In this document: piece after piece, positions 46 to 59,264 of the stretch
Numbering within the stretch: the first letter of the stretch is position 1
How the letters are laid out: each line of letters begins with the position of its first letter
Source of the DNA: Tepidiforma flava
Lineage (GTDB): Bacteria; Chloroflexota; Dehalococcoidia; Tepidiformales; Tepidiformaceae
Direction: 5' to 3'
DNA length: 64,000 bases
Assembly: GCF_027594505.1 (NCBI RefSeq)
Contig: NZ_CP115149.1
Coordinates: 799,914-863,913 of the forward strand
The notes under the pieces: generated by a model
What the model was told of the DNA's origin: nothing
What the model saw: the letters and a program-made list of their open reading frames with translations, nothing else
Databases searched by the model: none
Translations under genes and position numbers: made by a program

Positions 46-285
46 GTGGAAGAGCGCGCGGTGGAGAGCCTGCGGGGGCGCGATGCCTGGACGGCCGAGG
101 AGGTGCTGGCGCTCCGGCGGCGGCTCGGGCTGTCGCAGGCCGCGATGGCGCGGCGGCTCGGCGTGCGCCAGCAGACGGTGTCGGACTGGGAGACGGGCCT
201 CCACCGGCCGCGCGGGGCGAGCGCGCGGCTGCTGCGGCTGCTGGCCGAGGAGCGCGCGCCGTACGACGCCGGGGATTCGCCGTGA
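46..285 (+). CDS. XRE-family helix-turn-helix regulator
   Basis: This is a small DNA-binding protein of about 79 residues. Residues 18-65 carry a Cro/CI-type helix-turn-helix, with LGLSQAAMARRLGVRQQTVS as helices 2-3 and the usual SDWETG follow-up. The GTG at 46 is preferred because TAGGAT sits 7 nt upstream; the in-frame ATG at 37 would overlap that hexamer. The stop overlaps the next gene by 4 nt (282-285), so the two are probably translated together. No ligand or sensor domain is present. It may be a transcriptional regulator of its neighbour or an antitoxin-like protein; the target cannot be read from sequence. Confidence 0.8.
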   Translation: MEERAVESLRGRDAWTAEEVLALRRRLGLSQAAMARRLGVRQQTVSDWETGLHRPRGASARLLRLLAEERAPYDAGDSP

Positions 286-1441
286 CGGGCGGACCTGCGG
301 CGGCCCGCGCGCGCCGCCCGGTGATGCCGGCACCCGGCTTCGCGGACGAGGCAGCGCTGGCGTCGGCGTGGGCCGCCGCGCCGGCGGGCATCCTCCGGCT
401 GGCGGACGGGCGCGCGCTGCGCGTCGTCTTCCCCGGGGTGCCCGGCGACGGGAGCGGGCCGGATTTCCGGGATGCGATCCTCGACGTCGAGGGCGACCTC
501 GTGCGGGGCGACGTGGAGGTCCACCTGCGCCACTCGGGCTGGTTCGCGCACGGGCACGACCGGGACCCGGCGTACGCCGGGGTGGCGCTCCACGTCGCCG
601 GGGAGAACGACCTGCCGCTCGCCGCGACGCCGCACGCCGGCGGGCGGCGGGTTCCGCTGCTCGTGCTCGGGCCGCCGCCGGAGCCGGGCGCGGGGTTCGT
701 GCCGCCCTGCGCGTTCGCGCGCGCCGCGGGGCTCGATGTAGCGGGGCGGCTCCGCGGGATGGGACTGCGGCGGCTGCGGATGAAGGCGAACCGGGCGGCG
801 CTGCTCGCTGCCGGGCGCACCCCGGCGACGTGCTGCTGGCGCTGGCGGCCGGCGCGCTGCTCGGGCCAGCGAACCGCGCTGCGGCGGACGCGGCGGCGCA
901 GCTCCGGCTCGCCGCGCTGCTGGAGGAAGCCGGCGGGCTGGCCGGCGAACGGCGGCGGCTGGCGCTCTCGGCGGCGCTGCAGCGCGCGCTGCCGGCGGGC
1001 GGGGCGGGCGCGCGTGGCGGACGCGTTCGGCCGGCGGCGGCCCCGGGAAAGCGGCTGGGGGGCCTGGCACACCTGATCGACCGGTGGTGGCCGCCGGGCT
1101 TCGGGAACGGCTGGCCCGCCGGGCTGGCCCCGGGGACCGGGCGGCGGGCGGCGGAGGCAGAGGGGATCGGGCGGGCAGCGGCGATCGAGGTGCTGGTGAA
1201 CGCGGTCGTGCCGGCCGCACTGGCGACCGGCGCGTGGAGCGAAGCGGAGGCGGAGGCCGCGTGGGCGGCGCTGCCGTCGCCGGGGACGTACGGGAAGCTG
1301 CGGCCGCTCGAGCGGTGGCTCGGCGGGACGGAGGCCGCGCCGTTCGCCTCGGCGGCGCTGCTGCAGGGCGGGCTGCTGCTGCACGCGGACTACTGCGCGA
1401 AGGGCGCCTGCGGCCGCTGCCCGCTTTCGCCGCCCGGCTGA
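282..1441 (+). pseudogene. DUF2851 family protein, interrupted by a frameshift
   Basis: The family has no established biochemical function. The N-terminal part (from 282) carries the family hallmarks DFRDAILD and GDVEVHLRHSGWF with HGHDRDPAY. After about residue 180 the matching sequence continues in another frame (GDVLLALAAGALL), ending with the family's C-terminal cysteine cluster DYCAKGACGRCPL before the stop at 1441. The switch lies between about 790 and 825 in a G/C-rich run. Joined, the two pieces would give a near-normal length of roughly 385 residues. Either the gene is a recent pseudogene or one base is wrong in the sequence. Its 3' end overlaps the opposite-strand acetyltransferase by about 50 nt. 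Confidence 0.75.
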
Positions 1442-2079: not shown

Positions 2080-2178
2080 GTGGAAGCGGGGTGGCGCGGC
2101 TGGCGCCGCGGAGGATGGCTGGCCGCCTTCGGCGGCGGCGCCGCGGGATGCCGCCGCTCCGCGGCGGCGGCGGGGGAT

Positions 2179-2216
2179 GGGAGTTGGGAGCTGGGAGTTG
2201 GGAGGAGGGAGGGAGG
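2179..2216 (+). repeat. G-rich heptad array (GGGAGTT/GGGAGCT type)
   Basis: Five consecutive 7-nt units begin with GGGAG (GGGAGTT, GGGAGCT, GGGAGTT, GGGAGGA, GGGAGGG), followed closely by ctaacctct. The same unit and the same AACCTC-type tail recur at 59126-59258. The regular GGG spacing could support G-quadruplex formation. Confidence 0.85.
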
Positions 2217-2227
2217 CTAACCTCTAG

Positions 2228-2353
2228 CCGTAGCCGCGGGGCTCCGTCCCCGCGGAGGGCCGGGAGGCCCACCCCGTTCGCCGAATCCTCCCGCCTCCCG
2301 GAACATCCGTTGGGCGCATGGCGCCCCGCGGGGACGGAGCCCCGCGACTACGG
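2228..2353. repeat. Long inverted repeat with nested hairpins
   Basis: The arms 2228-2255 and 2326-2353 are 28 nt each and complementary with a single mismatch (core GCGGGGCTCCGTCCCCGCGG). Between them lie a second 9-bp stem (CCGGGAGGC at 2260-2268 with GCCTCCCGG at 2293-2301) and a small hairpin around 2313-2325. Folded, this is a three-way-junction shape. It may be a small non-autonomous mobile element or a structured RNA. No transposase or target-site duplication is seen. Confidence 0.8.
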
Positions 2354-2387
2354 AGTTGGAAGTTAAGAGTTGAGAGTTGGGAGGGAG
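2353..2387 (+). repeat. Degenerate heptad array
   Basis: Five 7-nt steps (GAGTTGG, AAGTTAA, GAGTTGA, GAGTTGG, GAGGGAG) abut the right end of the inverted repeat, mirroring the array at 2179-2216 on its left side. Confidence 0.7.
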
Positions 2388-2427
2388 CGTGATGCTGCCG
2401 GGGATGCCGTCAACCTCCCCGGCCAGC

Positions 2428-2515
2428 GCCGGCGCGGAGCGCCGGCATCCCGCGGCGATGCCGCCGGCCGGCGGCGAGCCATCCCGCGCCGGCGCAGGGC
2501 GCCGGCATCCCGCGG
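2428..2515. repeat. Two copies of a 28-nt hairpin repeat plus a central palindrome
   Basis: Copies at 2428-2455 and 2488-2515 each form a perfect 8-bp hairpin (GCCGGCGC, 3-nt loop, GCGCCGGC) followed by atcccgcgg. They differ only in the loop and lie 60 nt apart. Between them, 2460-2475 is a perfect 16-bp palindrome. An inverted partial copy is at 2141-2152. This resembles a small intergenic extragenic-palindrome family. Confidence 0.75.
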
Positions 2516-59125: not shown

Positions 59126-59258
59126 GGGAGGGGAGGGAGTTGGGAGTTGGGAGTTGGGAGTTGGGAGCTGGGAGTTGGGAGGAGGGAGCTGGGAGCTGGG
59201 AGCTGGGAGCTGGGAGCTGGGAGGGAAGATAACCTCCAACCTCCAACCTCCAACCTCC
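59126..59258 (+). repeat. Large G-rich heptad array with adjacent C-rich heptads
   Basis: About fourteen 7-nt units, mostly GGGAGTT or GGGAGCT, run from 59126 to 59225, then four exact AACCTCC units from 59231 to 59258. GGGAGTT and AACCTCC strands are largely complementary, so the two parts could fold against each other as a long imperfect hairpin; alternatively the G tracts may form quadruplexes. It lies between the rrf2 gene and the DnaJ-fusion promoter. The pattern matches the array at 2179-2220. Confidence 0.9.
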
Positions 59259-59264
59259 GGGTGG

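Follow-up and report, generated by a model that had tools for sequence, protein, structure and literature searches.

REPIN-like repeat cassettes with G-rich heptad arrays, confined to the replication terminus region and oriented by replichore in Tepidiforma

Among the GTAG REPs, REPINs, and BIMEs, GTAG repeats have been reported in Chloroflexi (PMC3733652, PMC3116915, PMC8266576), and G-rich heptameric intergenic repeats are known from Xanthomonas (GGGAATC) and Nostoc (PMC4692102). The orientation of IS200/IS605 elements matches the direction of the fork; Tn7-TnsE prefers termination sites and shows an orientation bias (PMC5371812). In P. fluorescens SBW25, REP arrays are oppositely oriented on opposite sides of the genome (PMC3116915). 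We analyzed a 64,000-nt stretch (the window; positions 799914 to 863913) of the single-contig, 2.77-Mb genome of Tepidiforma, here G000. A 126-nt inverted repeat in the window is a head-to-head REP pair, made of an A half and an inverted B half, and is REPIN-like. It forms the center of a composite cassette whose order is outer palindrome K, heptad module J, REP pair, J, K (Table 1).

The large inverted repeat described in the initial annotation is real, with arms of exactly 28 nt that differ by one mismatch, and the three-way junction is its predicted structure. The predicted RNA fold of 2228-2353 reached -95 kcal/mol (MFE), and none of 200 dinucleotide shuffles was as good (z = -8.1); the DNA fold of 2179-2400 had a z of -4.5. 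The G-rich heptad arrays said to flank the element were also recovered, as GGGAGTT/GGGAGCT units on the left and a more degenerate run on the right, and a 14-nt heptad dimer was enriched in the window (25 matches versus 8.3 expected). Three features had been overlooked. Each arm folds alone as a hairpin (-16.7 kcal/mol). The structure reaches further out on both sides, through heptads of a second type (AACCTCC) to a 40-nt inverted repeat, I2, that pairs 2130-2169 with 2427-2466 at 90%. The element is also highly repeated. The arm layout is CC-GTAG-N-CGCGGGG-CTCCGT-CCCCGCG, a GTAG-tagged hairpin as in REP sequences. A second, half-specific hairpin follows the arm hairpin, of the AGGGCCGGCGAGGCCCACC type in A and GGGCGCCATGCGCCC in B. 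Elsewhere in the window, a gene at 282-1441 (+) is seemingly split into overlapping ORFs (282-1076 and 830-1441), which suggests a possible frameshift or sequencing error.

Table 1. Coordinates of cassette features in the window
Feature	Position	Strand	Remarks
Outer module K, itself palindromic	2095-2172	+	Inverted partner 2427-2500
H1 heptad array (GGGAGNN)n of left junction module	2179-2213	+	
Short junction and partial H2 heptad (AACCTC), closing left H1-junction-H2 module J	2214-2226	+	
REP arm, A half, CC-GTAG-C-CGCGGGG-CTCCGT-CCCCGCG-G	2228-2255	+	
Second hairpin specific to A half, AGGGCCGGGAGGCCCACC type	2256-2272	+	
Second hairpin specific to B half, GGGCGCCATGCGCCC on minus strand	2311-2325	-	
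REP arm, B half, CC-GTAG-T-hairpin, inverted relative to A arm	2326-2353	-	
Degenerate H1 heptad array adjoining B arm	2354-2383	+	
Right J module: junction GAGGGAGCGTGATGCTGCCGGGGATGCCGTC and one AACCTCC unit	2384-2418	+	Junction shared with 1480-1482 kb and 1597 kb
Inverted partner of outer module K	2427-2500	-	I2 repeat, K matches
J module without REP core, (GGGAGNN)n - GGGAGGGAAGATA - (ACCTCCA)n	59136-59260	+	G000 859104-859150

The element is not single-copy. A total of 96 arm matches with two or fewer mismatches were found in G000, all between 736 and 1734 kb and none in the other 1.77 Mb; the arm pattern read backwards had 0 matches in this genome. Classification gave 101 arms, of which 57 were A and 44 were B, at 41 loci; every locus is intergenic and within 736-1734 kb. 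Three low-scoring matches (797050, 1046657, and 1404731) were left out as chance. The lack of coding potential noted earlier was borne out, as none of the 41 related loci had a gene call inside it. In the GTDB collection, exact arms occurred only in Tepidiforma sp. KatS3mg064 (G002), in a scan that may omit records of the window genome. Among 215 arms from the two genomes, the GTAG tag was intact in most, the remainder being mostly one- or two-base variants, and the loop CTCCGT was present in 207. The stem was conserved, with each pair at least 94% paired, and stem pair 7-14 showed a compensatory swap (GC in 84 and CG in 37 of 124 A arms). The family thus has the features of GTAG REPs, namely, a tag at the palindrome end, compensatory stem variants, high copy number, and extragenic position; like REPINs and BIMEs, it has pairs of inverted REPs separated by a short spacer, which also form tandem clusters. 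Tandem runs of five to six A arms in the same orientation were seen at 896703-897280 (~110 nt apart) and 1399868-1400652 (120 to 200 nt apart) in G000. Another genus of the same family has single hairpins of a related kind, tagged GGAG (GGAGTCGCGGGGCTCCGTCCCCGCT), at G012 C32:166855 and G024 C38:69874; G012 carries Y1 transposase genes.

In module J, a junction separates an H2 array, (GGAGGTT)n, from an H1 array, (CTCCCAA)n; the module occurs with and without a REP core. In G000, H1 is the neighbor of the A half in every case (45:0) and H2 that of the B half in all but two (37:2), from which the window copy and its twin depart. Module K has 40 matches in the genome; the strong copies all lie at 773-1734 kb, on the plus strand left of the terminus and on the minus strand right of it. 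Intergenic regions with cassettes are 0.3 to 1.6 kb long.

The REP zone, a third of the chromosome, is centered on the GC-skew terminus. Sampled GC skew was positive up to 1.11 Mb, near zero from ~1.11 to 1.23 Mb, and negative thereafter; it crosses back at ~2.3 to 2.44 Mb. The best dnaA match (C1:766135-766602, minus strand; locus L098) lay inside the repeat zone, far from the skew origin, and GC skew therefore replaced dnaA as the origin marker. Outside the REP zone, 13 stretches of 20 kb were sampled, and none held a heptad array as strictly defined. Genomes were sampled in stretches. The outer bounds given for the heptad zone are minimum values, arrays having also turned up at 641 and 700 kb. 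Cassettes read B(+)...A(-) left of ~1.11 Mb and A(+)...B(-) right of 1.13 Mb. Orientation fit the replichore at 38 of 41 loci (P = 5e-9; one-sided binomial), although this figure and those for clustering overstate independence, because loci are related by duplication, inversions, and shared ancestry. The orientation switch fell between 1107 and 1134 kb and hence, given near-zero skew from ~1.11 Mb, at the edge of the skew-defined terminus zone. A simple consensus found no dif-like site in 1.106-1.246 Mb.

Polarity extended to the arrays at the zone loci fetched, with H1 on the leading-sense strand (86:8) and H2 on the other (92:2). In coding sequence, GGAGGTT follows skew (68:13), and H2 arrays run against base-composition skew, so base composition fails to explain the arrays. 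A KOPS-like motif test in coding sequence is uninformative alone, because all G-rich words follow the very strong skew. Genes flanking the 41 loci, called with a simple self-trained caller, were convergent at 15, divergent at 12, and co-directional at 14, unrelated to cassette orientation, and an explanation of polarity by gene strand was rejected. The three polarity exceptions were the window copy, its twin at 1597 kb (the core alone being flipped in both), and a locus at 1083 kb. The last is the sole wholly wrong orientation; with a counterpart in G002 at C3:191296, this exception is old and tolerated.

The polarity rule for heptad arrays holds in four Tepidiforma genomes, two of which (G003 and G004) are without the REP core: no REP arms were found in either, and heptad arrays were present in both. 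In G002, 16 of 17 loci on contig C3 (positive skew) were of the left type and most on C2 and C5 (negative skew) of the right type; several orientation exceptions were flipped cores with heptads in the expected place. In G003, orientation switched at 467-576 kb and skew crossed zero at 550-600 kb; in G004, the switch lay at 1204-1304 kb and the skew crossing at 1250-1350 kb, with one exception. Long heptad arrays were not found in G001 or G005, and other genera had at most 14 matches. The region upstream of purM in G001 (L189) had a short, degenerate G-rich heptad run without long arrays. G001 PurM is slightly closer to G000 PurM than are those of G003 and G004.

Many of the sites are shared. 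At 34 of 41 G000 loci a flanking gene adjoins a G002 cassette, and many heptad loci of G003 and G004 map to G000 cassettes, indicating that heptad sites are old. Judging from this distribution, REP cores were added in, or retained only by, G000 and G002. At several G000 loci, the two flanks land at separate positions. The loci at 799/1597 kb and at 1102/1313 kb make up clean reciprocal pairs, those at 896/1548 kb and at 1044/1403 kb yield one junction each, and inversion midpoints fall at 1198-1224 kb. These displaced flanks, and junctions that pair cassettes, mark cassettes as endpoints of terminus-spanning inversions. Junctions from G002, a metagenome assembly, carry some assembly risk, which is reduced by the single-contig genomes G003 and G004, since they also show junctions joining two G000 cassettes. 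At the purM locus, the A half adjoins H1 in G002 and the core is reversed in the window copy, pointing to a flip of the core between its own 28-bp arms. That the B half, which normally adjoins H2, here adjoins degenerate H1 leads to the same reading. By this comparison of neighboring repeats, the REP core evidently flips between its own arms on occasion, and the window copy is a flipped one.

We tentatively favor a fork-directed origin of the REPIN-like cassettes, followed by recombination across replichores. Cassettes would have been copied or inserted into single-stranded DNA at the fork (the lagging-strand template) in a late-replicating zone, which would give them polarity. The REP pair was probably spread into older heptad sites by a RAYT-type Y1 enzyme, since lost. 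Cassettes would afterwards have been substrates for homologous recombination between the two replichores, and because such exchange yields terminus-symmetric inversions that keep polarity, the pattern would persist. The precedents of IS200/IS605, Tn7-TnsE, and P. fluorescens favor fork-directed copying as the origin of polarity. A search for Y1 transposases (PF01797) found none in six genomes of the genus, with E. coli and other controls positive, so the proposed mobilizer is hypothetical, and a Y1 transposase as current mobilizer was rejected. The cognate Y1 (RAYT) gene flanked by REPs that marks RAYT-mobilized REPINs was likewise not found. Moreover, heptad sites are older than REP cores and already polarized, and a REP transposase thus fails to explain the primary polarity. 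Conserved sites show little sign of recent movement, which counts against the favored account. No target-site duplication or empty-site footprint was resolved at flanks that are themselves repeat arrays, the G001 site being too diverged. Finally, symmetry about the terminus is only partial among the best cassette-cassette pairs, and strict fork-to-fork copying is therefore not established.

The strongest rival to fork-directed copying is a polar terminus signal under selection. On this view the cassettes, and the polar G-rich heptad arrays in particular, would be functional sites of the terminus domain for a putative translocase or organizer protein, FtsK/KOPS-like or MatP/matS-like, that locates the terminus by their orientation. 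Polarity and terminus confinement in four species, positions conserved across the genus, and retention of the GGGAG core while the other two heptad positions vary all agree with selection, as does the activity of E. coli FtsK in a terminal region of ~400 kb, with a KOPS switch at dif (PMC3140498). The cassettes share with KOPS an orientation switch at the terminus and do not share their whole-chromosome distribution; KOPS are short and chromosome-wide, and they are about as dense within the FtsK zone as beyond it (PMC3140498). Furthermore, the H1 and H2 arrays within a cassette have opposite directions, G002 retains the 1083-kb exception, G001 does without long arrays altogether, and no binding protein is known, which together make us regard selected sites as unlikely, if a serious contender. 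A further reading, in our judgment rather unlikely, is that the heptad arrays are genus-wide polar markers of the terminus domain, putatively read by a segregation or replication-termination protein in Chloroflexota, and that REP pairs colonized them later. If true, polar heptad arrays would be a new kind of chromosome-organizing sequence, as opposed to single 8-mers or 13-mers.

Polarity might instead be a survivor effect, in which cassettes were inserted in either orientation, recombination between wrongly oriented pairs deleted or scrambled the terminus region and was lost, and the pairs that remain give only tolerated cross-replichore inversions. Such selection seems too weak for 38 of 41 loci, and it leaves terminus confinement and the strict A-H1/B-H2 adjacency unexplained. 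Cassettes are indeed recombination endpoints, pairs in opposite replichores align inverted (369:46) and pairs in the same replichore direct (353:44), and in other bacteria inversions within a replichore are under strong constraint (PMC2483231). However, direct repeats in one replichore would delete essential genes too, yet dozens persist, and we consider this effect improbable as the source of polarity.

The initial annotation had offered a MITE-like, nonautonomous element, which stands in outline, as a dispersed repeat (101 arms at 41 intergenic loci), and lacks support as a classical TIR transposon. Mobilization as a conventional MITE, by a DDE transposase recognizing the 28-bp TIRs, would account for near-perfect terminal inverted repeats, which the element does have, and for its high copy number and noncoding nature. 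We nevertheless hold it to be very improbable: each TIR is a GTAG-tagged hairpin, arms often occur in tandem or singly, the two halves adjoin different heptads, no autonomous copy was found between arms, and no target-site duplication could be defined at the repeat-array flanks. Among the larger genes scanned between neighboring arms, there was no transposase and no autonomous relative with identical ends; these genes were ordinary metabolic or housekeeping ones. The initial annotation also raised a structured RNA or a regulatory module for purM. Control of purM in cis, by a regulatory RNA, a terminator, or a riboswitch-like module, draws on the very stable fold and the position upstream of purM and can be given almost no credence, because the same cassette adjoins dozens of unrelated genes at the 41 loci in convergent, divergent, and co-directional settings without a preferred gene orientation, the element is absent upstream of purM in G001, G003, and G004, and an Rfam search of the window gave no match.

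Repeats, replication direction, and chromosome inversions are linked here in an unusual combination. Terminus-limited repeats, fork-oriented with few exceptions, in several species offer a natural record of fork-based spread or of terminus marking in Chloroflexota, a poorly studied phylum. With conserved sites and matching inversion endpoints, it becomes directly testable whether terminus-symmetric inversions result from repeat polarity or give rise to it. The case also cautions that a stable intergenic hairpin need not be a local regulator of the neighboring gene.

Among described systems, the Tepidiforma arrays resemble the Xanthomonas and Nostoc heptads in being intergenic and G-rich, with G-quadruplex potential and often in convergent inverted pairs (PMC4692102). 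They differ in being confined to the terminus and strand-polarized, whereas Xanthomonas arrays have no origin/terminus or leading/lagging preference (PMC4692102). As in KOPS, orientation inverts at the terminus and the leading-sense strand is G-rich; unlike KOPS, which are single 8-mers found over the whole chromosome (PMC3140498), the cassettes are 0.3 to 1.6 kb long and lie near the terminus only. Orientation follows fork direction as for Tn7-TnsE, which favors termination sites, and IS200/IS605 (PMC5371812), but the likeness is one of pattern only, the cassettes having no transposase gene or defined insertion product. The arms match GTAG REPs, REPINs, and BIMEs in having GTAG followed by a hairpin with a 7-bp stem and subfamilies with alternative complementary stem bases, and REPINs and BIMEs in forming head-to-head pairs ~90 nt apart, intergenic, in ~100 copies, and with tandem clusters. 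Unlike those of REPINs, the arms bear differing second hairpins and differing heptad neighbors, no RAYT was found in the genus, and the family is restricted to the terminus zone with near-complete replichore polarity. REP/REPIN repeats and heptad arrays are thus known kinds of sequence, and it is their terminus confinement and replichore polarity that look new.
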